Assembly: GCA_021731205.1 (NCBI GenBank)
Contig: JAKFXV010000051.1
Span: 1-25,912 of the forward strand
DNA length: 25,912 bases
From: Nocardioides sp.
GTDB lineage: Bacteria > Actinomycetota > Actinomycetes > Propionibacteriales > Nocardioidaceae
Reading direction: 5' to 3'
Part shown: one piece after another, positions 1,204 to 15,408 of the stretch
Position numbering within the stretch: the first letter of the stretch is position 1
How the letters are laid out: each line of letters starts with the position of its first letter
Translations under genes and position numbers: made by a program
Notes under the pieces: generated by a model
The model's database searches: none
What the model was told of the DNA's origin: nothing
What the model saw: the letters and a program-made list of their open reading frames with translations, nothing else

Positions 1204-2250
1204 CTAGCCGAACGAGATCGCCATGTTGTCGATGAGGCGGACCCCACCGACAGTGGCAGCGACCAGGATCCGGCCGCCGGTGCCGGGTGGGGGCTGCTCG
1301 ACCAGGTCGCCGAGCTCGTCGTCGGTGATGCGTACATAGTCGACGTTCACATCCGAAGTGGTGGCGAGCCGGTCGTACGCCGCCTGCAGCGCCTGGTCAG
1401 GATTGCGCCCCTGGGCAGCCGCGCTGACGGCGTCTCGAAGTGCCCGGTTCAACACGGCGGCCGACTCTCGAGCGCCCGTCGACAGCAGCCGGTTACGCGA
1501 ACTCATGGCGAGGCCGTCCGGCTCCCGGATGGTCGGCGCACCCGCGATGGTGGTTCGCAAGTCGAGATCGCGCACCATCCGGCGCACCAGCGTCAGCTGC
1601 TGGAAGTCCTTCTCGCCGAAGACGGCGACGTCGGGACGGACCATGCCCAACAACTTGGCCACCACCGTCAGCACGCCGCCGAAGTGACCCGGCCGGGAGG
1701 CTCCTTCGAGAAGGTCGGCCATCGGTCCCGGGGACACGGTCACCTGGGGCAGCCCGCCGAGGTATACCTCGGCGACACTCGGGGCGAAGACGATGTCGGT
1801 GCCGAGCTCGCGACACAGCGCGACGTCCGCGTCGAGGGTCCGGGGATAACGGGCGAGATCCTCGGGGACACCGAACTGCAGCGGATTGACGAAGATGGAC
1901 ACGACGACAGGCCCGCCACCGACGTCTCGGCGTGCGAGTCGGATGAGGCTGGCGTGTCCTTCGTGCAGCGCGCCCATGGTGGGCACGAGGGCGACTCGGA
2001 AGTCTCGAGGCGACTCGCTGCCCACCCCAACAGGATCAGTGGGCACGAGGGCGACTCGGAAGTCTCGAGGCGACTCGCTGCCCACCCCAACAGGATCAGT
2101 GGGCACGAGGGCGACTCGGAAGTCTCGAGGCGACTCGCTGCCCACCCCAACAGGATCAGTGGGCATGAGGGCGACTGGGCCGACCGGGGAGCTCCTCGCT
2201 TCGCCCAGGGCAGCAGCCAAGTCGGCGCGGGTGTGAACGAGCTCCGTCAC
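1204..2250 (-). CDS. panC: Pantothenate synthetase with N-terminal triple-repeat insert
   Basis: PanC condenses pantoate and beta-alanine with ATP to make pantothenate, the coenzyme A precursor, in the cytoplasm. The body from residue 92 is canonical: MGALHEGH (HIGH-type nucleotide motif, 92-99), VSIFVNPLQFG, YPRT, HFGGVLTVV, FGEKDFQQL and the SSRN motif (KMSKS-equivalent). The odd part is the N-terminus. Residues 31-90 are three identical 20-residue units, each ending in RVALVP, the sequence of the first beta strand. The last unit runs directly into T-MGALHEGH, so the active-site junction is intact. An older degenerate version (VALMPT, 26-31) precedes them. The insert makes the protein 348 residues, against about 280-310 for the family. 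The start is a GTG, 19 bases after the upstream stop. It probably forms an operon with the Rossmann/DUF2520 gene and nadB. Confidence 0.96.
   Translation of the reverse strand: MTELVHTRADLAAALGEARSSPVGPVALMPTDPVGVGSESPRDFRVALVPTDPVGVGSESPRDFRVALVPTDPVGVGSESPRDFRVALVPTMGALHEGHASLIRLARRDVGGGPVVVSIFVNPLQFGVPEDLARYPRTLDADVALCRELGTDIVFAPSVAEVYLGGLPQVTVSPGPMADLLEGASRPGHFGGVLTVVAKLLGMVRPDVAVFGEKDFQQLTLVRRMVRDLDLRTTIAGAPTIREPDGLAMSSRNRLLSTGARESAAVLNRALRDAVSAAAQGRNPDQALQAAYDRLATTSDVNVDYVRITDDELGDLVEQPPPGTGGRILVAATVGGVRLIDNMAISFG
1981..2160 (-). repeat. Three perfect 60-bp tandem repeats inside panC
   Basis: Bases 1981-2040, 2041-2100 and 2101-2160 are identical. A partial fourth copy follows: 2161-2176 matches the first 16 bases of the unit with one mismatch (T for C). 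Sixty is a multiple of three, so the panC frame is kept. Each unit contains a 9-base internal direct repeat (GGCGACTCG twice) and imperfect inverted arms near its ends (GTGGGCACGAG against CTCGCTGCCCAC). Both features would favour polymerase slippage. Exact identity of the copies implies recent expansion or homogenisation. There are no spacers, so this is not a CRISPR array. Confidence 0.98.
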
Positions 2251-2269: not shown

Positions 2270-3190
2270 TCAGCGCAAGTAAGCGCCGGGCTCGGTCACC
2301 GCGGCTGCCTCCGCGGCGTCGAGGATCTGCGCGATCTTGGCGGCCCGGATCGGCAGCACCCTGCCATCGGTCACGACCCGGCTCAGAGTTGCTCGTGCCA
2401 ACGCCACGTATGACGGCAACGTATGAGGAGCCGAGGCCGCCACCTCGGCGACGTGGTCGCGAACGGTGTTGGCGTCTCCGCGCACGATCGGCCCGGTCAG
2501 GGCGAAGTCTCCAAGAGTCAGGGCGTTCTCCATGGCGGCGTTCAGCAGCGGACGCAGCGTGGCTGCGGGATCCTCCACGCCCGAGGCGGCCAGCAACTCC
2601 ATCGCCTCGGCGACCAGCGTGACCAGGTGATTCGCGCCATGGGCCAACCCGGCGTGATAAAGGGTGCGGTGCCCCTCGGCAATCCACATCGGCACGCCGC
2701 CAAGGTCGGCGATGAGCGTCTCGGCGGCGGCCCTTTCGTCGGGACCGGTCGTGACCGCGAAGGCGCATCCGGCGAGGCGCTCAAGATCCACGCTGGTCCC
2801 GGTGAACGTCATCGCTGGATGGATAGCCATCGGTCGGGCGCCCACTGCGGTCGCCTCCGCCAGCACCGCCAGTCCATGGCGGCCGGAAGTGTGCACGACC
2901 AATTGACCGGGGCGGATGGCTGCAGCACCTGCCAGCATGGTGGCGACGTTCTCGATCATGTCGTCCGGGACGGTCAGCAGCAGTACGTCGGCGGCTCTGG
3001 CCACCGCGCTCGGCTTGAGTACGTCGACCCCGGGGAGCAGATCGTCGATGCGACGGCGGGATGCGTCCGACTCGCCGGCCACGGCCACGATCTCATGGCC
3101 CGCGGAGCGCAGCGCCGCACCCAGGACAGCACCGACGCGACCAGCGCCAACGATCCCGATCGGGCCAACGGCCGCCCCGCCTGCGGACAT
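2270..3190 (-). CDS. Rossmann-like/DUF2520 oxidoreductase-like protein
   Basis: A 306-residue cytoplasmic protein with an N-terminal NAD(P)-binding Rossmann fold (GIVGAGRVG at residues 12-20) followed by VLLLTVPDD and VVHTSG segments. It has a helical C-terminal half (HPAMTF, then YHAGLAHGANHLVTL) typical of the Rossmann-like plus DUF2520 family, which resembles 6-phosphogluconate dehydrogenase-type and ketopantoate reductase folds. Rv3603c, immediately upstream of panC in M. tuberculosis, is the matching neighbour. The substrate is unknown. Position before panC makes a pantothenate-pathway role, such as ketopantoate reduction, a reasonable but untested inference. The ATG at 3190 has no Shine-Dalgarno sequence but a TAGGCT hexamer six bases upstream, suggesting a leaderless mRNA. 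It is the first gene of the likely three-gene operon with panC and nadB. Confidence 0.88.
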   Translation of the reverse strand: MSAGGAAVGPIGIVGAGRVGAVLGAALRSAGHEIVAVAGESDASRRRIDDLLPGVDVLKPSAVARAADVLLLTVPDDMIENVATMLAGAAAIRPGQLVVHTSGRHGLAVLAEATAVGARPMAIHPAMTFTGTSVDLERLAGCAFAVTTGPDERAAAETLIADLGGVPMWIAEGHRTLYHAGLAHGANHLVTLVAEAMELLAASGVEDPAATLRPLLNAAMENALTLGDFALTGPIVRGDANTVRDHVAEVAASAPHTLPSYVALARATLSRVVTDGRVLPIRAAKIAQILDAAEAAAVTEPGAYLR

Positions 3191-3211: not shown

Positions 3212-3227
3212 GGTCACAGCTGTGACC
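3212..3227. promoter_or_regulatory. Perfect 16-bp palindrome, possible operator
   Basis: GGTCACAGCTGTGACC is fully self-complementary. Outer CC and GG pairs, after a one-base mismatch on each side, extend it to about 22 bp. It overlaps the sulfatase stop codon (3214-3216) and the putative -35 region of the downstream operon. No T-run follows on either strand, so an operator is more likely than an intrinsic terminator. The half-site order (TCACA...TGTGA) is the reverse of the CRP consensus. Confidence 0.4.
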
Positions 3228-4749
3228 TGGTCAGCCGACGCGGTAGCGAACCGAAGTTCGGGTAGCACTCAACGGTGCCCGAGCAGGTGCGTAGCACTGC
3301 CAAGCGCCGGCGCAGCTCCTTGCGGATCGGGACGTAGCGCTTGGCGCTGGACAGGTTCCGGAGTTGATAGGGATCGAACTTGCGGTCGTACAGCTCGATG
3401 AACCCGCTCTTGAAGCGGATGAAGGTGTACCGCTTGTCGCGGATCCCTCGGTAGTCCCAGACGCTGTCGCTCGCGTCATTGGTGATGTTGCCGCCTTGGA
3501 TCAGCCTGGTCTGTCGGTCACTGACGCTTGGTTGGGCGAGCATGCCGTAGAGCGAGGCGCCGTCCATGGTGCGGCCCGGCTCAACACCGGACAGGTCGAC
3601 GATCGTGGGAGCGATGTCCACGATGCTCGCGGTGCGTGCCAGGTTCACCCCAGCGGGCACTCCCGGCCCACGCATCAGCATCGGGATCCGCAGTGACTCC
3701 TCATAGGCCAGCCGCTTGCCCCGGAATCGATGCTCGCCCATCATCCAGCCGTTGTCGGAGGTGAAGATGATCAAGGTGTCCTCGAGCTCGCCCGCTTCGT
3801 CCAGAGCAGCGACGGTGTCGGCGACGGCGTCATCGACCGATGCCAGTGCTCGGATCCGCGCAAGGAACATGCCGTTCATCTCCGCGGGGTCCTTCTTCGA
3901 CTGACCCCGGATCAGCTTGGGCTTGTCCTTGACGTTCGCTTCGTTGAACGACGGTTTGGACTCTGCGGGGTTGCGGGTGCCGGCGTACAGGCCGGCGTAC
4001 TCGCTCTCCGGCAGTGGAGGTGTGCCGCACCGAAGACCATCGATCTCGGAGTCACAGATGTTGTGCGGGGCGACATAACTGGCCCAGAGGAAGAAGGGGT
4101 TGGGCCCACCGGACCAGTCCTCGATCTTGCTCCGGGTCTTCTCGGCAACGTAGTCGGTGATGTAGGTGTCGGTGTGGACCTGCGGCGTGCCGTTGTTGGC
4201 CTGGGTGTAGTTGTAGTAGTCATACGTGCCCTCGATCGTGGGGTCCCACAGATCCCAGCCGACCGGTCGGCCGTGGACGTCGAAGTGGTACTCGTTGAGG
4301 AACTTCCCGATGAACCCGGTCTTGTAGCCCGCATCCTTGAGCCATGCTGCGACCGTGTTGTCCCGTCCCTGCAGCGCGGAGTAGCCGCCGCGCACGCCGC
4401 GGTTGGCGTAGACGCCGTTGTTCTGGGCGTACTGCCCGGTGAGAATCTCTGCTCGAGCAGGGCAACACAGCGGATGCGGAGAGATCGCCGACTCGAAACT
4501 GACACCGAACCCACCCAGCGCCGCGCGCGTCTTCGGCATCCAGGCCATGTCGCTGGCGGCTTGGTCGTCGGTCGTGATCAAGATGATGTTCGGGCGGTCA
4601 CCAGGGGCTGCGACCAGGGCGGCGCTAGCACTCAGTGGGCCGGAGGGACTGGCTCCGAAATTGCCGGCGGCGGAGACGGCCAAGGTGACCATGGCCACGC
4701 TCGCGCTCAAACCCATGCGTCGTCGTGACGCACGCCGCACGGATCCCAT
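3214..4749 (-). CDS. Secreted sulfatase (formylglycine-dependent, arylsulfatase family)
   Basis: A type I sulfatase that would hydrolyse sulfate esters outside the membrane. With the ATG at 4749 it has 511 residues; earlier ATGs give up to 525. The N-terminus has a basic patch (RRASRRR) and a hydrophobic run ending in an Ala/Ser-rich stretch, consistent with a signal peptide. Positions below are for the 525-residue form. Catalytic features seen: TTDDQ (metal Asp at 75-76), CCPAR at 109-113 matching the C-x-P-x-R formylglycine signature, IGKFLNEYHF (Lys163), APHN (His243), SDNG (345-348) and GEHRFRGK. The overall layout (PNIILITTDDQ, LTGQYAQNNGVYAN, GYKTGFIGKFLNEYH) resembles N-acetylglucosamine-6-sulfatase-like enzymes, but the substrate cannot be read from sequence. 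The formylglycine-generating enzyme is not in this window. The nearby sulfotransferase-like genes suggest a sulfated surface glycan as a target. Confidence 0.93.
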   Translation of the reverse strand: MGSVRRASRRRMGLSASVAMVTLAVSAAGNFGASPSGPLSASAALVAAPGDRPNIILITTDDQAASDMAWMPKTRAALGGFGVSFESAISPHPLCCPARAEILTGQYAQNNGVYANRGVRGGYSALQGRDNTVAAWLKDAGYKTGFIGKFLNEYHFDVHGRPVGWDLWDPTIEGTYDYYNYTQANNGTPQVHTDTYITDYVAEKTRSKIEDWSGGPNPFFLWASYVAPHNICDSEIDGLRCGTPPLPESEYAGLYAGTRNPAESKPSFNEANVKDKPKLIRGQSKKDPAEMNGMFLARIRALASVDDAVADTVAALDEAGELEDTLIIFTSDNGWMMGEHRFRGKRLAYEESLRIPMLMRGPGVPAGVNLARTASIVDIAPTIVDLSGVEPGRTMDGASLYGMLAQPSVSDRQTRLIQGGNITNDASDSVWDYRGIRDKRYTFIRFKSGFIELYDRKFDPYQLRNLSSAKRYVPIRKELRRRLAVLRTCSGTVECYPNFGSLPRRLTRSQL

Positions 4750-4756
4750 CGCGCAA

Positions 4757-4762
4757 ATACTA
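4757..4762 (-). promoter_or_regulatory. Candidate -10 box for the sulfatase gene
   Basis: TAGTAT on the minus strand fits the actinobacterial TANNNT -10 element and ends seven bases before the ATG at 4749, with no Shine-Dalgarno between. This favours a leaderless transcript and the 4749 start over ATGs at 4791 and 4782. No good -35 is visible. Confidence 0.5.
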
Positions 4763-4824
4763 CCGATGAACCGCACCTTCATTGGCATCACGGCCCAAGC
4801 AGTGCGTCTGCGAGACTGTGCGCC

Positions 4825-6246
4825 GTGACGAGACAGGGCACCCCGGTGAAGAATGTGGCCGTTCTGTTAGCCGGAGGAGTCGGTGCTCGGATCGGCCTGG
4901 ACATCCCGAAGCAACTGCTGAAGGTGGCGGGCAAGACGATCTTGGAACACTCGCTGATCGCCTTGCACGAGCACCCACTGGTCGACGAGGTGGTGATCAT
5001 GATGGCGCCGGGACACCTCGACGCCGTTCGCGAGATCGTCCGAGCCGGCAACTACACAAAGGTCAACGCGATCCTCGAGGGAGGCGTCACCCGCAACGAG
5101 ACCACCCTCAAGGCCTTGTCGGGAATCCCTCCGGAGCCGTGCAACATCTTGTTCCATGACGCCGTCCGGCCGTTGGTCACTCAACGGATCATCACCGAGT
5201 GCTTCGAGGCACTCCAGAAGCATGGGGCCGTCGACGTCGCCATCCCTTCGGCCGACACGATCGTCGAGGTCGACCACGACGACGTGATCCGGGCAATCCC
5301 ACCGCGCGCTCAACTGCGCCGGGGGCAGACCCCTCAGGCTTTTCGTTCCGACGTCATCCGCGCGGCGTACGCCAAGGCTGGGGAAGACCCCCACTTCGAA
5401 ACCACCGACGACTGCTCGGTCGTGCTCCGCTATCTCCCCGACGCGCCGATCGTGGTCGTGCGCGGGGATGAGCGCAACATGAAGGTGACCGAGCCGATCG
5501 ACGTATACCTGGCAGACAAGCTGTTCCAGCTGACCAGCAACGACGTGCCCACTCCGGGTTCGGACCAGGAGTACGAAGCCCTGCTCACGGGCAAGACCCT
5601 GGTCGTCTTCGGCGGCAGCTACGGCATCGGCGCGGACATCGCAGCGTTGGCCGATCGCTTCGGGGCGAATGTGCACTCGTTCAGCCGCTCGAGTACCCAG
5701 ACCCACGTCGAGCGGCGCGCCGACATCGAGGCTGCGGCGGCGACGGCGATAGCGGCCACCGGGCGGGTGGACTTCGTCGTGAACACCGCCGGGGTGTTGC
5801 CGCGGGGCACGCTGCTGGACACCAGCGAGGAGACGATCTTCGCGGCTACCGAGATCAACTACTTGGCGCCGGTCTTCATAGCTCAGGTCTTCTTCCCCCA
5901 CTTGGCGGCGACGAAGGGCGCGTTGTTGCTCTTCACCTCAAGTTCCTACACGCGCGGTCGCAGTGGCTACAGCTTGTACTCATCGGCGAAGGCGGCCACC
6001 GTGAACCTGACCCAGGCACTTGCCGACGAGTGGGCGGGCGACGGCGTACGTGTCAACTGCATCAACCCCGAGCGCACCGCGACGCCGATGCGAACCAAAG
6101 CGTTCGGGCAGGAGCCGTTGGGGTCATTGTTGGATTCCGAGACCGTGGCTCGCACCTCCTTGGATGTGCTCCTCTCACGTGAGACCGGGCACATCTTCGA
6201 CGTCCGCAAGGACGACCCGTTCGGCCCAGGATCCGAAGGCGATTGA
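4825..6246 (+). CDS. Bifunctional ribitol-5-phosphate cytidylyltransferase / ribulose-5-phosphate reductase (Bcs1/Acs1-like)
   Basis: It predicts synthesis of CDP-ribitol, the donor for ribitol-phosphate polymers. Residues 10-235 form an IspD/TarI-type cytidylyltransferase: LLAGGVGARIG (14-24) with PKQ at 28-30, FHDAVRP (110-116), RRGQTPQAF, TTDD and NMKVTEPID. Residues 255-473 form a short-chain dehydrogenase: GGSYGIG (263-269), NTAG (320-323), Ser 372-374 and Y385-xxx-K389. This order and the 473-residue length match Haemophilus influenzae Bcs1/Acs1, a fused CDP-ribitol synthase that reduces ribulose 5-phosphate and activates the product. Plain IspD of the MEP pathway lacks the SDR half. 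The gene runs opposite to its neighbours. Start: GTG 4825 or GTG 4846; neither has a clear ribosome site. The TagF-like polymerase nearby is the expected user of the product. Confidence 0.88.
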   Translation: MTRQGTPVKNVAVLLAGGVGARIGLDIPKQLLKVAGKTILEHSLIALHEHPLVDEVVIMMAPGHLDAVREIVRAGNYTKVNAILEGGVTRNETTLKALSGIPPEPCNILFHDAVRPLVTQRIITECFEALQKHGAVDVAIPSADTIVEVDHDDVIRAIPPRAQLRRGQTPQAFRSDVIRAAYAKAGEDPHFETTDDCSVVLRYLPDAPIVVVRGDERNMKVTEPIDVYLADKLFQLTSNDVPTPGSDQEYEALLTGKTLVVFGGSYGIGADIAALADRFGANVHSFSRSSTQTHVERRADIEAAAATAIAATGRVDFVVNTAGVLPRGTLLDTSEETIFAATEINYLAPVFIAQVFFPHLAATKGALLLFTSSSYTRGRSGYSLYSSAKAATVNLTQALADEWAGDGVRVNCINPERTATPMRTKAFGQEPLGSLLDSETVARTSLDVLLSRETGHIFDVRKDDPFGPGSEGD

Positions 6247-6269
6247 GACTGCGCGGATCGACGCTCGGC

Positions 6270-7523
6270 TCAATGCCTGCGAAGAAACCGGCGCAGCCGC
6301 TCAACGATCGAGGGCGGGGCAGCCAGTTGGGTGCGAAGCCGCTGGATCTCGTGCATGGTGCCGGCCATGCGGTCGGCCACACGAAGTCGGCGGTGCCGCT
6401 CCCGGACGGCGGCCTCGATCGGGCCTTGCACTCGGTCAGGGGCCAACGGGAGTCCCTGGATGCGCCCCAATTGGATCAGGACTCCGGCGAGAAACTGGGC
6501 GGCCACGTCTCCCGGGACATCGCTCACGGTCGCGACGCCGCCTGCCGGGGGAAGCTTCGTGGGGTTCGCCAGCGTGGCCAACGACCCGAGCACTCGGACG
6601 CCGCTTGCCCCGATGCCGGCGCTGATCTCCGCGCCGATCGCAACTCCCCGATCGACAGCCCAAGGGGGAGTCGTCAGCCGGGTTTCCGTGGCCGAGGGCC
6701 TTCTGGCTCGGACGTGCTGAGCCGCACCGAATCTGATCAGCTCGGTGTAGTCCGAGGCCGACCAGTGCTCGGCGACGTAGTCCGCATTGAAGCGGCGGAG
6801 CACCTCGGTCTCGGCGAGCGTCAACGACCTGTTCGCCGGGACTTCTTGCGCCACCAGGGTCTCGCCCGGCAGCCCGAGTAGGTCCTCGAAACTGCGCAGC
6901 AGCATGCCCGGGTCATGCTCGTCGAGGACGATGACAGTGACCCGGTCTGCGCCGACGACGCCGGCCCAGCGGGCCACCAGAGCATCGTGGCGATGGCGTT
7001 GCCAGAAAGTCGGGGTGATCGCCTTGGGAGGGGTCGCCAGAACGCCTTCGAGCCATTCGGAGTAGGCGATGACGGCTCGATTCTGGACATACTGCTGCCA
7101 CTGGGAAGCCAAGATGTTGACCACGGGGCGCAACGTGATGACCACGTGCAATCGCTCAGGTCCGAGCTGTGAGGCGATCCGTCGCGCCCGCTCGTCGTTG
7201 GCTTCGCAGAAGAACTCGCTGCTCAGCACGGCTGCCCGCGCCGACGAGCGCTGCACCTCCTCCACGAGGGCGCGCCAGGCAAGCTCCCCGGCGTCGGGGC
7301 TGTTCGACGGCAACCGGCGCTTGGTCGCCGCACCGATCGCTGCGGTCATGGAATGGGCTCGGTCGCCTGCATAGTGAACACCGTGGGCCGCCAGGCGTTC
7401 GCGGCTGTGGTGGAAGGCTGCCTGGACCGCCGTTGTGCCCGTCGTGTGGGGCCCGATGTGCAGCACGACCTCGGACGGCGGGCCGGGGGTGTCGGGCGCG
7501 TTGGTGGCGGCAGCCGAAGTCAC
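6270..7523 (-). CDS. Sulfotransferase-like protein A (catalytic Lys replaced by Thr)
   Basis: A 417-residue member of the bacterial carbohydrate sulfotransferase-like family, related to the two proteins at 21805-24208. Family members transfer sulfate from PAPS. The N-terminal motif is LHIGPHTTGTTAVQ (residues 21-34), aligning with HIGPxKTGT; the residue equivalent to the PAPS-contacting lysine is Thr27 (ACG, one base from AAG). The second, 3'-phosphate type motif is retained: VVITLRPVVNILASQWQQY with Arg132 and Ser140. The C-terminus is basic (VERLRRFLRRH). It starts at GTG 7523, overlapping the upstream stop by four bases (GTGA), so translation is probably coupled. It could be inactive, use another residue, or have lost sulfotransfer for another role. 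It converges with the CDP-ribitol synthase gene, with 23 bases and no clear terminator between them. Confidence 0.8.
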   Translation of the reverse strand: MTSAAATNAPDTPGPPSEVVLHIGPHTTGTTAVQAAFHHSRERLAAHGVHYAGDRAHSMTAAIGAATKRRLPSNSPDAGELAWRALVEEVQRSSARAAVLSSEFFCEANDERARRIASQLGPERLHVVITLRPVVNILASQWQQYVQNRAVIAYSEWLEGVLATPPKAITPTFWQRHRHDALVARWAGVVGADRVTVIVLDEHDPGMLLRSFEDLLGLPGETLVAQEVPANRSLTLAETEVLRRFNADYVAEHWSASDYTELIRFGAAQHVRARRPSATETRLTTPPWAVDRGVAIGAEISAGIGASGVRVLGSLATLANPTKLPPAGGVATVSDVPGDVAAQFLAGVLIQLGRIQGLPLAPDRVQGPIEAAVRERHRRLRVADRMAGTMHEIQRLRTQLAAPPSIVERLRRFLRRH

Positions 7524-8521
7524 CGCGCCTCCCATTCGGCGCGCAGGGAGGAAAGCTCGTGCAGGCGATCGCGCCATGCGGACAGATCCGGTGCGGGTGG
7601 CAGCGCCACCGTCACCGCGCGGCGTAGCACCTCGATCCCGGCCTCGGCCACGAAGTCGGTCGGCAGGTCCGCCGACCCATCCAGCCGCAGCGGCCAGAGC
7701 AGCGCGTCGGCGTACCCGGTCATCTCCCACCCCGCGGCAACGGCTTCTCGCCGGATCCGTTTCGAGAACGCGCGCAAAGCGACGCCGGTCTCGGGCGTGA
7801 CCAACCTCGCCAGGTCCTGATCTGTGCCGCGTCGAAGGATCGCGACCAGGTCGAGGGCACGATGCCTCATGGTGAGCCGATACGTGGCGTCCGCCTGCTC
7901 GATCTGGCTCCACACCTCGGCGGCGACCGCCGCGGCGACAGGCGGGAGCCCGTCGAGATCCGGCTGATCGGGCATCGTGGGAACGTGCGGCACCCCGAGC
8001 AGTTCGGTCGCACTCAGTTCGTCGATCGGATCCGGCCAGACGAACAGACGGCGGCGAGACTGCTTCACAGCTCCTTGGCGAACGAGCATCAAGTCGTAGC
8101 GCCACGTGGCCGTGGCGCCGCCTGCCTGATGCTGTTGGCTGATGGGATCGAGCACCTCTTCACGGATCCAGGCCTCGAAGTTCTCGCGTGCGGACTCGGC
8201 GAAGGCGCGTTGCAGCAGCGTCGGGAAGGTCGGCAAGACGACGATCGCGGTGTCCGCTACGGCACCCGGTTCCGTGGAGACGACCGCGCCTTCACGCGTC
8301 GTGCGCACCGTCACGCCGAGGTCGTCGATCTCTCCAGCACGTGACTGCCACCAGGATTCGGTGAGGGCGGCATTGAGCCCGGCCCGCCCAGAGGGGTGCA
8401 GCGCCTGAGGAAAGACGATACGAAGCAGCAGGTCCGCGTCCCAGGCCGGCGCTTGGACGGCCTCGAACTCCGGATCGGTCTCGGTGCCCGGTACGGAAAC
8501 CGAAGTCCCGGGGTGTGCCAC
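7520..8521 (-). CDS. Unrecognised protein coupled to sulfotransferase-like A
   Basis: I do not recognise this family. It is a soluble-looking protein of 333 residues (335 if GTG 8527 is used), with no signal peptide or membrane helix. Visible features: a Trp-rich early section (APAWDADLL, ESWWQSR), a mid-region RLFVWPDPIDELS, a Leu/Arg-rich helical section (RLTMRHRALDLVAILRRGTD) and a helical C-terminus ending LSSLRAEWEAR. It lies between the polymerase (18 bases from its stop) and sulfotransferase-like A, which it overlaps by four bases, so it probably works with one or both. The start at GTG 8521 is preferred because TAGGGT lies seven bases upstream, but the AGGG in it could equally be a weak ribosome site for either GTG. 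The function is open. Confidence 0.8.
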   Translation of the reverse strand: MAHPGTSVSVPGTETDPEFEAVQAPAWDADLLLRIVFPQALHPSGRAGLNAALTESWWQSRAGEIDDLGVTVRTTREGAVVSTEPGAVADTAIVVLPTFPTLLQRAFAESARENFEAWIREEVLDPISQQHQAGGATATWRYDLMLVRQGAVKQSRRRLFVWPDPIDELSATELLGVPHVPTMPDQPDLDGLPPVAAAVAAEVWSQIEQADATYRLTMRHRALDLVAILRRGTDQDLARLVTPETGVALRAFSKRIRREAVAAGWEMTGYADALLWPLRLDGSADLPTDFVAEAGIEVLRRAVTVALPPAPDLSAWRDRLHELSSLRAEWEAR

Positions 8522-8528
8522 ACCCACA

Positions 8529-8534
8529 ACCCTA
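8529..8534 (-). promoter_or_regulatory. Candidate -10 box or weak ribosome site before the unrecognised gene
   Basis: TAGGGT on the minus strand is seven bases before GTG 8521. It fits TANNNT, but the AGGG core also resembles a Shine-Dalgarno, so the reading is ambiguous. It sits in the short gap after the polymerase gene. Confidence 0.3.
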
Positions 8535-8539
8535 TCGAC

Positions 8540-11500
8540 TCAATCGGGGTCGAAGAACGCGTCCACAACGCGCTCGGCTGCCCGCCCGTCCTGGAGATAG
8601 TTGAACCTGTCGTGGAATGCGTCGTAGGCGGCGGCGTAGTCCCGCGACACCTTGGGCAGGTCCTGCAGGGCCTCGATCACCTGCTCAGGACGGTCGAGCA
8701 ACGGGCCGGGGGCTGAGGGAGCGAAGTCGTAGAGGAACCCGCGCACCGAGCCGGTGTACTCGGCCAGGTCGGGCACCAGGAAGAGCATCGGTCGCCTGGT
8801 CAAGGCGAAGTCGAACCGGAGCGAGGAGTAATCCAACACCGCGGCGTCGGCAGCCAGGATCAGATCGTTGATCTCCGGATAGTGGGTGACATCGATGAGC
8901 CGGGCCGAATCCACGGCCCGACCCCCCGCTTTGCCGTGGAAACGGTGCCCACGCATCAAGAAGACGAACTCTGGCCCCAGCGACTCGCTCGCGTCCTCAA
9001 GATCGATGTGTTCGACGCGTTCGGCGTTGCGATAGTTGGTTGCCAGATCGTCGCGCCAGGTGGGTGCGTACAGCACGGCCGTCTGGTCGGCTCCGATGCC
9101 CAGCAGCTTCCTGGTCCGTTCACGCGTCTGGTCGGCGTCCGCCGCCAACAGGTCGTCGTCGCGTGGATACCCGGCGCTGTGGATCGCACCGGAGTAGCGG
9201 TACTCGCGGCGATAGTGCTCGTCCATCTCCGGGGTGGGGGTGAGGATGAGATCCCAGTCCTCGGCCGTTCGCGCGAGCTCGGCATCGATCCGACGCGGCG
9301 TGAACTGCTTCGCCGTCCACAGCCGGATGCCCATGGACTTGGCCGGATAGCCGTGGAAGGTCTGCAAGAACTTCTGCCCGGGACGAGGCGAGAACCAACG
9401 ATCGAAGTCGATGTTGTTGACCAGATAGCGACTCGTCGCCAGCGCGTCGTACCAGGCCGAGGTGTTGAGCACGACCGGAACGGCGCCCTCGGGCACCCAG
9501 CACGAGCGGTCGTAGACGCCCCAGAACAAAGTCCATTCCGGGAATCGTCGGCGCAGTTCGCGATGGATCGCGACCTGACTGTCCGTGGCCGAAGCACCGA
9601 CGTACGACTGGAGATAGACCTGATGGTCGTTGATCGCGCGATCCGCGCCGAGACCAACCTGCAGGCGCCGCTGATAGTAGGGGCTGCGCTCCTCGGCAGG
9701 AACCGGGCGAGCCAGGTAGAGGCCGGCCTCGATCCCCCTTCGGAACAAACGCCAAGAGTAGACATCGGTGTCGACCACGTCGAGCATCGTGGAAAGCAAC
9801 TCGGGCGACAGTTGGACAGAGCCCGTCCGCGCACCACACGTGAGTTCGAACGCGTAGCGCCCACTCGGTATCGGCATCGAGCCACGGCCCCACTCGTCGG
9901 CCTCGAGGTCGGCTTCCCAGCTGGAACGCCCATCGCCGGCTTCGGCCAGTTCGCCCAGGGTCAGGGTCTGCTGCGGACCCCGGAGCCGCAGCTCGTGGGT
10001 CCGCGGTCGCTGCCCGAGGAACCGGCCCTGGACAACCAGTCGCGGTGGGGTCCCCGGGTGAACCGTGATCTGTTCCAGTTGGAGTGTGCGTCCCGGGGCA
10101 GCGGGTCGGGTGCCCCCGCGCTTGCCGGTGCCGCCTCGCGGTGAGGAAACCAGCACAGCCACCGCGTCGGGGTGCGGGTTCAGGGATACGTGTGTGTCTC
10201 CGGTCTCGACCGCCGGGAACTGCGCGGTGCCGAGCAGACCTGCAATGCCCCGCTCGTCGCGCCTGGTGATCCCCGACGTGCGGCTGAGCGCGCCCAGAGT
10301 GAGTGCGACCTCGAACCGCCAGGTTCGTTCGTGCTCGCCATGGATCGGCAGATCCCGGACCGGCAGGGTGAGAGTCAGCAACCCGTCGCCGTAGTCCTGA
10401 TAGCGATGTTCTGCGAAGTGGTTGACCGCAGACGTCCAACCCAGCGCGGCCGGCACCTGCACCCGTTCACCGGTGGTGACATCGACCATGACGACATCGA
10501 CGCTTGCGCCATCCCTGCCGCCCTCGGCGAACGAGACGAAGTCCACCCAGGTGAACAAGGTGATCTCCAGGGTGTCGTCCGGGAGCCGGCGCACGTTGCG
10601 AAGCACTACCTCGAGAGCCGTCTCTGCCGGCGACATCAGGTAGGTGTCGTCCGGCACGTCCCATTCGGGATCCCGAAAACCCGGCAGCCGCGCGTAGACG
10701 CGCCCATCCTCGACCAGAGTCGCCTTGTTCCCCTGCTCGAACCAGCGAGCGACAACCAGGTCGGCCAATCGCCCTTGCTGGTCGTCAGCGAGCAACCACA
10801 CCTTCACCCGAGACTCGGCCCGGATGCGATCCGCGGCGGCGGGAGCCAACTCGAGCAGCGCGCGAACGTAGCCGCGCAATTGCGACCAGTGCGCCGCTCC
10901 GGCGACTTCGACCCGGTCCAAGAACCCCTGAAGTTCGCCATCCAGGACAGACGCGACCCAGTGGTCGATCACGTCGTCGGTGCCGACGGCCCGCACGGCG
11001 GCCAACGTGGCCTCCTGCTCGCCCAGCCAGGGGGTCAGATCTTCGAGGGGGTCGACCAGCGCCCCCACCGGCACGCCCACCGCACGATTCATATCGCGAT
11101 AGGCGACCACATCGACCACATCGAAGGTCTTGGCTGCCATCGTGGCGCGCAGCACGCGCTCTGCCTGCGTCACCTCGCTGCCCAGCCACGCCTCCTGACC
11201 GGCCAACCAGAACGTCGTACGGAACATCCGGTTCTCGAGTCCCAGGTTGGTGACGACGGCAGGGCAATCGCTGATCGACAGATTGCGTCCCGACACCCCG
11301 ACCAACGGTTCTCGGATCTCGCGCACCTTCCGGCCCAGGGTGACCACGGATCGACGGTGCCCGACGGCCAGGTCCGCACCCGACTCTGCGAGCGACTGCG
11401 CCAAGGCCGCGACGCCTCGCGGTGGCAACTGGTCCTCGCCCTTGACGAACTGGACGAACTCGCCTCGGGCGGCCGAAGCTCCCGTTGCCTGAGCACCTGT

Positions 11501-11851
11501 TCGGTCGCGAGCTGCGGTGGACAGCAGTCGCACCCGGACATCGGCCGACGCGTGTCGCCGCACGAGGGGTCGTACGTCCACCGCCGGTCCCCACAACGAG
11601 ACGACGATGTCGACCTGGGCATGCGACTGGGTGCGGATGGAGTCGAGACAAGCGTCGAGGAAACGCGCGTCGGCATCGCTGGCGGTCACCACGATGCTCA
11701 CCAGTCGCGGAGCCGAGGCTCCTCGCGGTTCACGATTGCGCAACCGGCGCAGTCCACGACGCAACGGTTGAGGCAGTGCCTGGTCGACCCTGGCCAGCCT
11801 TGCTTCGAGCCGACCCACCAACCCAACAACCCTGCTTTCAGCGACTGGCAC
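8540..11851 (-). CDS. GT2-like / TagF-like polyol-phosphate polymerase fusion
   Basis: A 1103-residue protein predicted to polymerise a polyol phosphate, probably ribitol phosphate, on the cytoplasmic face of the membrane. Residues about 50-250 resemble a GT2 glycosyltransferase, but the usual acidic nucleotide site is degenerate: SLWGPAVD where DDGSxD is expected, and FVKGEDQLP (135-143) where the DxD would be. Residues about 330-650 form a linker with beta-rich segments. The C-terminal 380 residues are a TagF/CDP-glycerol glycerophosphotransferase domain: FLQTFHGYPAKSMG (828-841, catalytic His region), YAPTWRDD (928-935), RGHRF (967-971), DYSS (1007-1010) and RGFLYDF. TagF family members use CDP-glycerol or CDP-ribitol; the CDP-ribitol synthase next door favours ribitol. 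No membrane helix is visible, and basic N-terminal helices may bind lipid. The start is GTG. Confidence 0.88.
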   Translation of the reverse strand: MPVAESRVVGLVGRLEARLARVDQALPQPLRRGLRRLRNREPRGASAPRLVSIVVTASDADARFLDACLDSIRTQSHAQVDIVVSLWGPAVDVRPLVRRHASADVRVRLLSTAARDRTGAQATGASAARGEFVQFVKGEDQLPPRGVAALAQSLAESGADLAVGHRRSVVTLGRKVREIREPLVGVSGRNLSISDCPAVVTNLGLENRMFRTTFWLAGQEAWLGSEVTQAERVLRATMAAKTFDVVDVVAYRDMNRAVGVPVGALVDPLEDLTPWLGEQEATLAAVRAVGTDDVIDHWVASVLDGELQGFLDRVEVAGAAHWSQLRGYVRALLELAPAAADRIRAESRVKVWLLADDQQGRLADLVVARWFEQGNKATLVEDGRVYARLPGFRDPEWDVPDDTYLMSPAETALEVVLRNVRRLPDDTLEITLFTWVDFVSFAEGGRDGASVDVVMVDVTTGERVQVPAALGWTSAVNHFAEHRYQDYGDGLLTLTLPVRDLPIHGEHERTWRFEVALTLGALSRTSGITRRDERGIAGLLGTAQFPAVETGDTHVSLNPHPDAVAVLVSSPRGGTGKRGGTRPAAPGRTLQLEQITVHPGTPPRLVVQGRFLGQRPRTHELRLRGPQQTLTLGELAEAGDGRSSWEADLEADEWGRGSMPIPSGRYAFELTCGARTGSVQLSPELLSTMLDVVDTDVYSWRLFRRGIEAGLYLARPVPAEERSPYYQRRLQVGLGADRAINDHQVYLQSYVGASATDSQVAIHRELRRRFPEWTLFWGVYDRSCWVPEGAVPVVLNTSAWYDALATSRYLVNNIDFDRWFSPRPGQKFLQTFHGYPAKSMGIRLWTAKQFTPRRIDAELARTAEDWDLILTPTPEMDEHYRREYRYSGAIHSAGYPRDDDLLAADADQTRERTRKLLGIGADQTAVLYAPTWRDDLATNYRNAERVEHIDLEDASESLGPEFVFLMRGHRFHGKAGGRAVDSARLIDVTHYPEINDLILAADAAVLDYSSLRFDFALTRRPMLFLVPDLAEYTGSVRGFLYDFAPSAPGPLLDRPEQVIEALQDLPKVSRDYAAAYDAFHDRFNYLQDGRAAERVVDAFFDPD

Positions 11852-11859
11852 AGGCGGGC

Positions 11860-11865
11860 AGTCTA
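11860..11865 (-). promoter_or_regulatory. Candidate -10 box for the polymerase gene
   Basis: TAGACT on the minus strand ends eight bases before GTG 11851, with no Shine-Dalgarno between, suggesting a leaderless start. The box overlaps one arm of the inverted repeat at 11862-11887. No -35 match is evident. Confidence 0.4.
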
Positions 11866-11887
11866 CCGGTCGGCTGTGCCCGGTAGA
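11862..11887. promoter_or_regulatory. 8-bp inverted repeat upstream of the polymerase gene
   Basis: TCTACCGG (11862-11869) and CCGGTAGA (11880-11887) are perfectly complementary arms around a 10-base spacer, in the 51-base gap between the transporter lipoprotein stop and the polymerase start. One arm covers the putative -10 box. It could be a repressor operator or, as RNA, a hairpin ending the transporter transcript. There is no T-run, which weakens the terminator reading. Confidence 0.4.
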
Positions 11888-11902
11888 GGACCTCTCGCAG
11901 CG

Positions 11903-12835
11903 TTAGAGCAAGCCCTCGGAGGTAAGGAAGTCGCGAGCCACGTCGGCCGGTTGCGCCCTGTCGACCGAAACCAAGCCATTGAGTTCGGTGAGCTTCTCTG
12001 TGTTGAGTGCGGCCATCAGCGCGTTGAGCAGATCGCCCACCTCGGGATTGGCGTCCAAGAACTCTTGGCTCACGGCCGGCACGAGGTTCTGCGCCGGCTG
12101 GATGGCCTGGTCGTCTGCCAACAGCAACAGCCCCTGGGCGGCGAGTGTGCCGTCCGTGGTGCTGGTCAGACCCAACTGTGCTTCATCCTTCAAGACCGCC
12201 TGATAGGTCTGCTCGCTTGCGAAACCCAGCGGGAGAATCTCGGTGATGTCGATGCCATAGGTCTGGCTCAAACCGCCCTCACAATCCGGGCGACCTTCGC
12301 AGTCGGGCGCCGCCGCCAAGACCACGGACTTGCCCGCGAGGTCGGACAAGGTGGCGACCCCCTCCGCGTCGGCGTACGCCTGCGAAACGAAGAAGGCATT
12401 CGTGTCGGTGGCCGCAGAAGGCTCCAGCATCACGATGCCGGCATCGTCGAGCAGCGACTGCGCGTTCGCGAGCGACTCCGCCGCGTCACTGGTGGTCAAC
12501 GATGGAGCATCGGCTCCGTTGACAGTGGTGTTCAAGAAGTTGACGATGCCGCCGACGTACTCGGGCACCACATCGACGTCACCGGGGAAAGTCTGCATAT
12601 AGACGTCGCGCGTGTCGACGAGTTTGACCTCCGGCTCGTAGCCCGCGTCGGCCAGGAGTTGTTCGTACATGCTGGCGACCAGGACAGCCTCCGGGAAGGC
12701 CTGGCCGGAAATGCGCACTGCCCCCTTGTCGGTGGGCGTTTCACCGGTGTCGGCGACCTCGTCGCTCGCGCAGGCCGTCGCTAGGAGCAGCGTCGCCACC
12801 GCCAGCGCGCCACTGATCATCGGTCGTGTCCGCAT
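11903..12835 (-). CDS. Glycine betaine/choline-type ABC transporter substrate-binding lipoprotein
   Basis: A 310-residue extracytoplasmic binding protein of the OpuBC/OpuCC/OsmF/ProX family, which binds quaternary-ammonium compatible solutes. The N-terminus has RTRP then a hydrophobic run ending LLATAC, giving Cys22 as the likely lipidated residue (alanine at -3 is a slightly non-standard lipobox). Family signatures seen are GDVDVVPEYVGG (solute-site region) and CEGRPDCEGGLSQTYGI. The start is secure: ATG 12835 has a strong GGGAGGT four bases upstream. A longer in-frame extension upstream would run into the permease region and is rejected. It is the last gene of a permease-permease-lipoprotein run, separated by 113 bases holding an 18-bp palindrome. 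The exact ligand (betaine, choline, carnitine or other) cannot be assigned without the aromatic-box alignment. Confidence 0.92.
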   Translation of the reverse strand: MRTRPMISGALAVATLLLATACASDEVADTGETPTDKGAVRISGQAFPEAVLVASMYEQLLADAGYEPEVKLVDTRDVYMQTFPGDVDVVPEYVGGIVNFLNTTVNGADAPSLTTSDAAESLANAQSLLDDAGIVMLEPSAATDTNAFFVSQAYADAEGVATLSDLAGKSVVLAAAPDCEGRPDCEGGLSQTYGIDITEILPLGFASEQTYQAVLKDEAQLGLTSTTDGTLAAQGLLLLADDQAIQPAQNLVPAVSQEFLDANPEVGDLLNALMAALNTEKLTELNGLVSVDRAQPADVARDFLTSEGLL

Positions 12836-12948
12836 GTCTACCTCCCGTGGTGACACCCGGGTGTCACGCGTTCGAGTCGTCTGGAAGAACCTTCCCCCAC
12901 CCAACACTGCCGGGGTCTGTTCCGAGCGGGAGGAACCAGAGAGTGAGA
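12836..12948. other. 113-base gap between permease and binding-protein genes
   Basis: This is the largest gene-free stretch. From the permease side it holds a short hairpin (GGAAG-AAC-CTTCC, 12883-12895), the 18-bp perfect palindrome at 12850-12867 and the strong ribosome site of the lipoprotein gene. No convincing -10/-35 pair was found. It may hold an internal promoter or an mRNA-processing site that raises binding-protein output over the permeases, as is common in ABC operons. Confidence 0.5.
12850..12867. promoter_or_regulatory. Perfect 18-bp palindrome before the binding-protein gene
   Basis: GTGACACCCGGGTGTCAC is fully self-complementary and sits 14 bases upstream of the ATG at 12835, next to the GGGAGGT ribosome site. 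It may be an operator for a solute- or osmolarity-responsive regulator, or an RNA hairpin that protects the lipoprotein mRNA. There is no T-run, so it is a poor intrinsic terminator. Confidence 0.5.
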
Positions 12949-13665
12949 TTACGGTTTGGCTACGGCTGGTGCCACGGTCTGGGGCGTGCGTGACGTCGCG
13001 CGCGCCAACGCATACGCCGATCCGATCTCGAGTACCAGCGCCACGGCGGCGACCACCACGGCGCCGGCCACGCCCTTGGGGTAGTTCGAACGGTAGAACC
13101 CGTCCGTGATCACGCGTCCCAGGCCGGGCCCCGCGACCATGGCCGCAATCGTTGCGGTAGCCCACACCTGTACGAGCGCCAGTCGGACGCCGGTTCCGAC
13201 CAACGGCAGCGCGAGCGGAAGTTCCAGGCGCCAGAACCGCTGCCAGGGCGTCATGCCCATGCCCGCTGCCGCCTCCTGCAACTCTCCCGGAACCTCACGG
13301 ATGGCGACGTACGCATTGGTGATGATCGGGGGCAGGGCGAACAAGGTCAGGGCGATCAGGGTCGAAAGGCCCGCGCGACCGTAGGGACCCAGCGTCGCCG
13401 TCCCGGGCCAATCCGCGGTGACAAACAGCCCGAGCAGGGCGAAGGTCGGCACCGCGCGCCCGACGTTGCTGATGTTGATGGCCAAGAAGCCACCCCGGCC
13501 TACATGCCCGAGCCACAGTGCCAGCGGAAGCCCGATCACCAGGGCTGCCAGGAGCGCGGTCACCGTGATCAGAAGTTGTTGCCCCAGCAACCGCAGCATG
13601 CCGTCGTCGCCGGACCAATGCGCAGCATCGGCCAGATAGCGCCAGGTCTCGAGAGCGATCTGCAT
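12949..13665 (-). CDS. Quaternary-amine ABC transporter permease (OpuCD/OpuCB type)
   Basis: A 238-residue inner-membrane permease with about five or six hydrophobic segments, the first at LLITVTALLAALVIGLPLALWLG. It carries the EAA loop that docks the ATPase: EVPGELQEAAAGMGMTPWQRFWRLELPLALP. Other hallmarks of the osmoprotectant family are NVGRAVPTFALLGL and MVAGPGLGRVITDG. ATG 13665 overlaps the upstream permease stop by one base (TGATG), implying coupled translation. The longer reading starting at 14235 is only a frame extension through the other permease. It likely forms a heterodimer with the neighbouring permease. Confidence 0.92.
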   Translation of the reverse strand: MQIALETWRYLADAAHWSGDDGMLRLLGQQLLITVTALLAALVIGLPLALWLGHVGRGGFLAINISNVGRAVPTFALLGLFVTADWPGTATLGPYGRAGLSTLIALTLFALPPIITNAYVAIREVPGELQEAAAGMGMTPWQRFWRLELPLALPLVGTGVRLALVQVWATATIAAMVAGPGLGRVITDGFYRSNYPKGVAGAVVVAAVALVLEIGSAYALARATSRTPQTVAPAVAKP

Positions 13666-14339
13666 CACGCCACCCGCGCCCACGGGGTGAGCAGTCGCTG
13701 GAGGATCACCAGCAGAAGGTCCAAGACCACGGCCAACACCACGCAGAGCACAGCTGCGGTGAACAACTCCGCTCGAAAGTTGTTGTCGACGCCGTCCTTG
13801 ATGAGATTGCCGAGCCCGCCGTACGACACGAGCGTGCCCACTGTCGTCAACGCCACGGTGGACACCATGGCGACCCGCAGCCCCGCAAAGATCACGGGGA
13901 GCGCCAGCGGCAGTTCGACGCTGGCCAGCAGGCGTCCGGATCCGAACCCCATCCCCCGCGCGGACTCCCGCACGTCCTCGGGAACCGAACGTAGCCCGGT
14001 CAACAGCGCGTTCACCAAGATCGTGAGGGCGTAGCCGGCCAGGCCGATGATCACGGTCCACGGGGTCAGTCCCGTGAACGGCACGAGGAGCGGAAACAGG
14101 GCAAGTGAGGGAATCGTGTACAGCCAGGTGGAAACGCCCAGCATGGCGGTCTCGGCGCGCGGTCGCCCGCGCGCCAGTAGGGCGGCGGGTAGGGCCAGCA
14201 ACAGTCCCAGCCCCACGGAGGCGAGGGTGATCCACACGTGCTCGATCGTGGCTTCCACGACTTCGGGAGCCCGATCACGGAGGTAGTCGGCGCACACCCA
14301 GTCGTTGACCAATCGGCTATAGCAACTGGGCCCGGCCAT
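13665..14339 (-). CDS. Quaternary-amine ABC transporter permease (OpuCB type), partner subunit
   Basis: A 224-residue permease and the partner of the next gene. It starts with a short polar lead, then hydrophobic segments (VWITLASVGLGLLLALPAALLA, WLYTIPSLALFPLLVPF, and others) and an EAA loop (SVPEDVRESARGMGFGSGRLLASVELPLALP). VALTTVGTLVSYGGLGNLIKDG matches the osmoprotectant permease family. I choose ATG 14339; ATG 14369 or GTG 14363 are possible, the latter with TAGCGT eight bases upstream, and would nearly abut the divergent ATPase start. With the 14339 start the two divergent genes are only 28 bases apart, so their promoters must overlap coding or start sequence. Confidence 0.9.
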   Translation of the reverse strand: MAGPSCYSRLVNDWVCADYLRDRAPEVVEATIEHVWITLASVGLGLLLALPAALLARGRPRAETAMLGVSTWLYTIPSLALFPLLVPFTGLTPWTVIIGLAGYALTILVNALLTGLRSVPEDVRESARGMGFGSGRLLASVELPLALPVIFAGLRVAMVSTVALTTVGTLVSYGGLGNLIKDGVDNNFRAELFTAAVLCVVLAVVLDLLLVILQRLLTPWARVA

Positions 14340-14354
14340 TGAATCCGACGTGGG

Positions 14355-14360
14355 TAGGCT
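14355..14360 (+). promoter_or_regulatory. Candidate -10 box for the ABC transporter ATPase gene
   Basis: TAGGCT, identical to the box before the DUF2520 gene, ends seven bases before ATG 14368. It suggests a leaderless transcript from the very short divergent gap. No -35 consensus is visible at normal spacing. Confidence 0.4.
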
Positions 14361-14367
14361 CACGGTC

Positions 14368-15408
14368 ATGGACGCTACCGGTCCGCCGACGGGCGCGACG
14401 GAATCCGAGGCCTCCTCACCGCCGATGATCCGCCTGACCGGTGTCGGCAAGACCTACGCAGACGGCACCGTCGCGGTCGACAACGTCACCCTCGACGTTC
14501 CGAGGGGCTCTGTCACGTGTCTTGTCGGGCCGTCCGGTTGTGGCAAGTCCACCACGTTGAAGGTGATCAATCGGCTCATCGAACCGACGAGTGGATCGAT
14601 CGAGATCGACGGGCACGACGTCATGACCCAAGATCCTGTGCACTTGCGCCGGCGCATCGGCTACGTCATCCAACAGGTCGGCTTGTTTCCGCACCAGACG
14701 ATAGCCACGAACGTGGCGACCGTCCCGGCGCTCCTGGGGACGCCGAAGTCCACGGCGAGGCTGCGTGCCCTGGAACTGTTGGAGCTCGTCGGACTCGACC
14801 CAGTGATCTACGCCGATCGTTACCCGCACCAACTCTCGGGCGGCCAGCGTCAGCGGGTCGGCGTGGCGCGCGCCCTTGCAGCCGACCCCCCGGTGCTGCT
14901 GATGGATGAACCGTTCGGAGCCGTGGATCCGGTCATCAGGGAACGTCTGCAAGACGAGTTCCTCCGACTGCAGCGCGAACTCCACAAGACGGTCGTCTTG
15001 GTCACCCACGACATCGACGAGGCGATTCGGATGGGAGACCAGGTGGCCGTGTTCGCCACCGGAGGCAGGCTGGCTCAGTGCTGCGCACCCGCCGAACTGT
15101 TGGCCCGGCCGGCCGATGACTTCGTGGCCGACTTCGTCGGCTCGACGAAGGGCCTGCGTCGGCTGGCCGTGACCCGCATCGATCCCGCGTATCTCGAGCC
15201 TCCGGACTCGCCCGACCCAGACTTCGACGGCGCGGATGCCCTGAGTGGGGATCAGATCCTCGTCGATGTGTCCTGCACCCTCGAGGAGGGACTAGCCGCG
15301 CTGCTGCGCGACGACCGCGATCGGGTCGCGGTCACGAACGGGACGCGGGTGCTGGGATTCCTCACGGCCAACGGCGTGCATCGAACCCTGCGGGCAGCCG
15401 TGCACTAG
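14368..15408 (+). CDS. Quaternary-amine ABC transporter ATPase with one CBS domain
   Basis: A 346-residue cytoplasmic ATPase that powers compatible-solute uptake with the two permeases and the lipoprotein. Motifs seen: Walker A GPSGCGKST (54-62), Q-loop near 102-103, signature LSGGQRQRVGVARAL (156-170), Walker B VLLMDE (176-181), and switch His214 in VTHDIDEA. The C-terminus contains a single CBS-like segment (ILVDVSCTLEEGLAALLRDDRDRVAVTNGTRVLGFLTANGV). OpuA/OpuC ATPases usually carry a tandem CBS pair that senses ionic strength, so a single copy may mean reduced or different gating. The start at ATG 14368 fits the -10 box; GTG 14350 and ATG 14425 are alternatives. It diverges from the permeases, unlike the usual co-directional arrangement, and ends five bases from the convergent coiled-coil gene. 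Confidence 0.93.
   Translation: MDATGPPTGATESEASSPPMIRLTGVGKTYADGTVAVDNVTLDVPRGSVTCLVGPSGCGKSTTLKVINRLIEPTSGSIEIDGHDVMTQDPVHLRRRIGYVIQQVGLFPHQTIATNVATVPALLGTPKSTARLRALELLELVGLDPVIYADRYPHQLSGGQRQRVGVARALAADPPVLLMDEPFGAVDPVIRERLQDEFLRLQRELHKTVVLVTHDIDEAIRMGDQVAVFATGGRLAQCCAPAELLARPADDFVADFVGSTKGLRRLAVTRIDPAYLEPPDSPDPDFDGADALSGDQILVDVSCTLEEGLAALLRDDRDRVAVTNGTRVLGFLTANGVHRTLRAAVH

Follow-up and report, generated by a model that had tools for sequence, protein, structure and literature searches.

The panC gene and its tandem array

The window analysed here, a stretch of 25,912 nt that makes up the whole of contig 2 in a draft assembly of 350 contigs (2,092,539 bases, 84% complete), comes from an uncultured Nocardioides-like bacterium and carries on its minus strand a panC gene, whose product serves the making of vitamin B5 and in which a 60-bp unit is repeated three times in frame (Table 1). 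This array is probably the outcome of a recent minisatellite expansion within the coding sequence, tolerated as a loop in an enzyme that most likely still works. The identity of the gene is supported by scores of 272.1 bits against TIGR00018 (cutoff 212.75) and 303 bits against PF02569 (20.7). The frame is open, without stops, and the catalytic residues H96, H99, N122, Q125, K214 and Q218 are intact by alignment, the M. tuberculosis PanC residues used for comparison being His44, His47, Asn69, Gln72, Lys160 and Gln164 (PMC5772511). Among the matches listed, the closest homologues bearing names are mostly from Nocardioides, and identity does not exceed 67% once the window's own protein is set aside.

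Tandem Repeats Finder (TRF) delimited an array at 1979-2176 with a period of 60, 3.3 copies, 99% matches and a score of 389, in which three letter-perfect units (1979-2158) are followed by a near-perfect partial copy. The 60-mer gave mismatch-free matches at precisely the three unit positions of Table 1, and no match in 100 shuffles with up to 3 mismatches allowed. The exact period-60 run covers 1979-2165 (187 nt), with single mismatches beyond it at 2166 and 2177, and the partial copy corresponds to the first 18 bases of the unit in forward-strand orientation. In coding order, the array reads VALMPT, then three times DPVGVGSESPRDFRVALVPT, then MGALHEGH, which adds 60 residues in frame as codons 32-91 of the open reading frame (ORF). 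In codon phase the units sit one base lower than in TRF phase, the codon directly before the ATG being ACC and not ACT. The reading frame survives because 60 is a multiple of three and the coding frame of the unit has no stop. The locus thus presents what defines an intragenic minisatellite, namely at least two near-identical head-to-tail units in frame within a gene.

A preliminary description of this DNA had reported three perfect copies with a partial fourth, an in-frame triplication in which every unit carries another first-strand sequence, and a last copy that restores the normal junction before MGALHEGH. The copies were borne out by TRF and 60-mer matching, and the other two points can be read directly from the DNA and its translation. 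The end of the array was also placed correctly, while its start, given as 1981, was two bases late.

Table 1. Positions in the window of panC, its repeat units and adjoining features
Feature	Position	Strand	Remarks
panC, pantoate--beta-alanine ligase, 348 aa, GTG start	1204..2250	-	only panC match in the assembly; TIGR00018, PF02569
MGALHEGH active-site motif (residues 92-99)	1954..1977	-	intact, immediately follows unit 3
Unit 3 in coding order	1979..2038 (TRF phase); residues 72-91 = 1978-2037 in codon phase	-	its RVALVPT is the predicted strand 1 (87-91)
Unit 2, identical 60 bp	2039..2098; residues 52-71, one-base shift	-	low-confidence loop in the model
Unit 1, identical 60 bp	2099..2158; residues 32-51, one-base shift	-	low-confidence loop in the model
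Partial copy 0 (VALMPT codons)	2159..2176	-	17/18 bases identical to the unit end; pairs with each unit end as a short direct repeat at 60-bp spacing
Normal PanC N-terminus (residues 1-25, MTELVHTRADLAAALGEAR...)	2176..2250	-	predicted helix 8-20
Upstream gene, Rossmann-like/DUF2520 protein	2270..3190	-	upstream of panC

Distribution of the array and of its unit

No comparable array occurs in the 118 other PanC homologues, among the matches listed, that keep residues before the motif (best 120 of 7999, leaving out two whose first residue is the motif methionine, the window's own protein being one). The motif methionine is found at position 15-46 in these homologues versus 92 in the window, where it would fall at 32 without the units. 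At the DNA level, TRF detected no array scoring above 70 at any of 104 other PanC loci, over a span reaching from 400 bp upstream to 300 bp downstream; 105 of 134 loci were examined, the window (L001) included, and the 29 having no match to the motif pattern were left out. Relatives sharing the units, which the preliminary description had named as evidence against its own reading, were thus encountered neither among these homologues nor at these loci. A search of the genus (215 genomes, the window's own included; aligned ranges only, among the matches listed) left one genome without match and gave some rows aligning from residue 30-80 instead of ca. 85; G110, an early-starting row outside the TRF locus scan, has a normal N-terminus.

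Neither a second strain nor a close relative was found, no other species or contig was seen to have units in whatever number, and the protein cluster of the window consists of one sequence on one contig. The plasmid search returned a single 55-base match, annotated panC. A homologue search restricted to residues 26-98 gave nothing at E 0.001, such a short region scoring poorly even in true PanCs, and a panC repeat is described in none of the titles and abstract starts among the papers listed in literature searches, which does not establish its absence from print. For the unit itself no second copy was found elsewhere in the assembly, where matches outside the array go no further than 15 nt if exact and 20 nt if 90% identity is allowed, and in the 214 other genomes of the genus only one weak match was found. 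The latter, 40 bp at 86% in G171 (L238, 1485-1524), lies within a 797-codon ORF of an unrelated gene and is probably due to chance.

By TRF score, the panC array ranks first among the tandem arrays in 971,754 of the 2,092,539 assembly bases, the scan comprising 92 contigs (1-88, 100, 200, 300 and 350), with contigs 1, 3, 4 and 5 represented by their first 20 kb only. Sixteen TRF rows have a period of at least 20, at least 90% matches and a score of at least 90, 7 of which lie in no frame open for at least 150 codons. Such an array is uncommon for panC; as a phenomenon, namely recent in-frame tandem duplication, it is familiar from bacterial genes.

Predicted structure of the extended enzyme

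The AlphaFold2 model keeps helix 1 and forms strand 1 (residues 87-91) from the last RVALVPT, so that helix 1, strand 1 and the HIGH-like motif are all in place in the predicted fold. Residues 21-80, which are of low confidence, are located between helix 1 and strand 1, where the connection measures 66 residues versus 5 in the control P0005. In the PanC fold, this connection sits at the end of the strand opposite to the ATP site. The preliminary description had the units inserted before the active-site motif. In the DNA the insertion does abut the motif, but the model refines this picture, the extra residues looping out between helix 1 and strand 1. The floppy extension that it had offered as an alternative fits best, and most likely the enzyme works and accommodates the array as an exposed loop.

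Origin and proposed expansion of the unit

A near-copy of ca. 17 bp of the unit end, comprising the strand-1 codons VAL[M/V]PT, directly precedes the first unit. Flanking a single unit on either side, such a repeat would be a natural substrate for slippage or unequal exchange, and the unit may have gone from one to three copies via replication slippage or unequal recombination between these repeats. In M. smegmatis, a related high-GC actinobacterium, direct repeats increase precise deletion ca. 1,000-fold (PMC3519483). As copy 0 departs from the three identical units, the expansion appears recent, and the preliminary description had drawn the same conclusion from the identity of the units. The protein would have kept helix 1 and taken the last RVALVPT as strand 1, with the preceding copies and linkers looping out at the connection between the two; as PanC most likely still works, the array would probably be nearly neutral and unstable in copy number.

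As to the source of the first unit, its 42-nt core has a GC content at third codon positions (GC3) of 0.57 versus 0.83 for the remaining panC, a value as low being reached by 87 of 2686 14-codon windows in seven genes of the window, which may point to a young or non-coding origin. That the core was captured from another part of the genome was rejected given the short matches reported above, as was a source among relatives, the lone match in G171 being treated as chance. An inverted copy produced by template switching is suggestive at best: the core holds GTGGGCAGCGAG, a near-inverse of the unit end, and when 3000 random 18-mers of the assembly were compared with the core, 46 equalled or exceeded the score of the unit tail and 494 that of copy 0.

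Alternative explanations

Several observations weigh against a recent expansion tolerated by a working enzyme. Mean model confidence is 84.8 versus 92.9 for the control and, near strand 1, reaches 84 and 88 versus 98 and 90 (10-residue blocks). AlphaFold2 moreover made no independent choice of copy, because in alignment A1 the strand 1 of homologues is paired with the last copy, the other copies facing gaps. The window protein has 6 substitutions at highly conserved columns, tying with the highest of 44 homologues, and a second panC is possible because the assembly is only 84% complete. The database protein P0001 (257 aa; window 1204-1977) begins at M92, without helix 1 and strand 1, and by inspection position 2250 lacks a strong start-codon context. 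Finally, the first unit can be aligned as an older tandem copy of the preceding sequence, but this origin was rejected, as the resemblance of its 42-nt core to that sequence stays at the level of chance, being matched in score by 114 of 500 shuffles and by 673 of 3000 genome windows.

The rival explanations to be set against this reading were given confidences that are not mutually exclusive. The substitutions and the lower confidence at strand 1, together with an insert adjoining the active-site motif, would agree with a PanC left weak or dead by the array, whether as a pseudogene at an early stage or as a deleterious variant, in a cell that obtains pantothenate from its neighbours; with an open frame, catalytic residues kept, a fold predicted intact and no other panC match found, this situation is considered unlikely. 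Translation from an internal codon, which would turn the repeats into a mostly untranslated leader, is suggested by the database start at M92 and by the in-frame candidates available (GTG at codons 36, 49, 56, 69, 76 and 89, TTG at 11, ATG at 29 and 92), but it is very unlikely, as the N-terminus MTELVHTRADLAAAL is similar to those of relatives and receives high confidence in the model, and a start at M92 would cost strand 1. The start of P0001 at the active-site methionine is likely a start-prediction error at the repeat.

That the array arose during assembly, the true gene having no unit, one unit or another number of them, is rather unlikely. The assembly is a draft in 350 contigs, and the longest exact repeat, 127 nt, is near the limits of short-read assemblers, which makes the copy number fragile: between 1900 and 2300 all k-mers are unique at k of at least 128, one is repeated at k 127 and many are at smaller k. 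Repeats longer than the k-mer are described as collapsing (PMC6868369), and most such copy numbers are stated to be beyond short-read resolution (PMC12817950). The unit-to-unit junction (GTGCCCACTGATCC) is, on the other hand, distinct from the junctions of copy 0 to unit (ATGCCCACTGATCC) and of unit to motif, so that reads spanning no fewer than two units should be required before a graph assembler writes it, and an artefact does not readily account for two or more copies. Had the assembler worked with a large k, three copies would be the plain answer; the true number could also be higher, a short-read assembler still writing three. The assembly error considered in the preliminary description therefore stands as an uncertainty in copy number, with collapse to too few copies being the better-described error (PMC6868369).

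It had also been proposed that copy number tunes coenzyme A synthesis, a claim left unsupported, as no second strain or close relative was found. As a contingency (phase-variation) device, for which the case rests on analogy, the array is highly improbable: M. tuberculosis promoter tandem repeats vary in copy number within cultures (PMC12817950), and the deletion-promoting effect of direct repeats in M. smegmatis, cited above, is of the same analogical kind. A 60-bp unit is unable to switch the reading frame and thus does not qualify for phase variation by frameshift, other strains, species or contigs with any number of units were not found, and varying PanC has no known advantage. It is just as improbable that a hypermutable in-frame repeat offers alternative first strands, so that the number of units alters the activity or stability of PanC and thus the supply of coenzyme A; a graded contingency locus inside a core biosynthetic enzyme, as this would be named, deserves equally little credence.

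Palindromic elements of Rickettsia are hairpin-capable units found in frame within genes, and the least probable explanation is that the unit is a mobile palindromic element of that sort inserted in frame. Its putative hairpin has a DNA folding energy of -17.3 kcal/mol (plus strand, z -3.67 and 0 of 200 shuffles; minus strand, z -2.49 and 2 of 200; 0 of 150 and 3 of 150 in a best-rotation control), with inverted arms of 20-21 nt that are 70-71% complementary, and the low GC3 of the core would also agree with such an origin. A hairpin as strong is however met in 8 of 200 random 60-mers of the window. Dispersed copies at several loci, such as define a mobile or interspersed element, were not found in the 2.09-Mb, 84% complete assembly, and the only match in the 214 other genomes of the genus lies inside an unrelated ORF.

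Other features of the window and the assembly

Between DUF2520-panC and the genes for HPPK, a pterin-binding protein, GTP cyclohydrolase, FtsH and TilS, positions 3217-15405 of the window encode a sulfatase, a CDP-glycerol glycerophosphotransferase with a glycosyltransferase domain, components of a glycine-betaine-type ABC transporter and a single 473-aa protein (4825-6246) that fuses an IspD/TarI-like cytidylyltransferase to a short-chain dehydrogenase. Relatives usually go more directly from one of these gene groups to the other.

Other tandem units were detected in the assembly. A 59-bp unit with a purine-rich GGAGGAGTC end and a ATGAGCGAAGCGAG start (L170 453-634, G000 contig 24) belongs to a dispersed family with 15 matches on 13 contigs, two of them corresponding to the query's own array, and occurs in tandem in L170 and L155; we take it to resemble a mycobacterial interspersed repetitive unit (MIRU)-type repeat. 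A unit of ca. 21 bp resembling GAGGCGTCACAAACACGCG forms tandem arrays, in both orientations, in the G000 contigs L180, L173, L045, L202, L042 and L176, and one of ca. 31 bp with GAAATCACG or similar recurs in L164, L203, L204 and L042.

Significance and comparison with known systems

Understood as a recent expansion within panC, the array represents an apparently natural case of a core enzyme absorbing a gain of ca. one-fifth in length just before its nucleotide-binding strand while its catalytic residues stay intact. It illustrates a route by which repeats may enter housekeeping genes of high-GC actinobacteria and, with a database protein whose first residue is the active-site methionine, the way in which gene prediction can misplace starts where repeats occur. 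If variable in copy number, it would provide a simple test of tolerance in an enzyme of a vitamin pathway; as found, it is a curiosity.

When compared to bacterial PanC (TIGR00018 / PF02569; M. tuberculosis structure 1mop), the window protein is alike in domain, predicted fold and catalytic residues and differs in having helix 1 and strand 1 set apart by a further 60 residues. Like the palindromic elements of Rickettsia, the unit lies in frame in a gene and may form a hairpin, and it differs in that no dispersed copies were found in the assembly. The variable repeats of M. tuberculosis likewise belong to a high-GC actinobacterium, and one promoter repeat gains a 57-bp insertion at its locus (PMC12817950), close to the 60 bp seen here; the repeats considered for this comparison are located in promoters or pe/ppe genes and are variable, whereas the window array lies inside panC and is known from one assembly. 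A parallel in arrangement is with intragenic tandem repeats such as those of Legionella pneumophila (PMC2639597), which are also head-to-tail units within coding sequence, the array described here being distinguished by its position in a conserved core metabolic enzyme, beside a nucleotide-binding motif.
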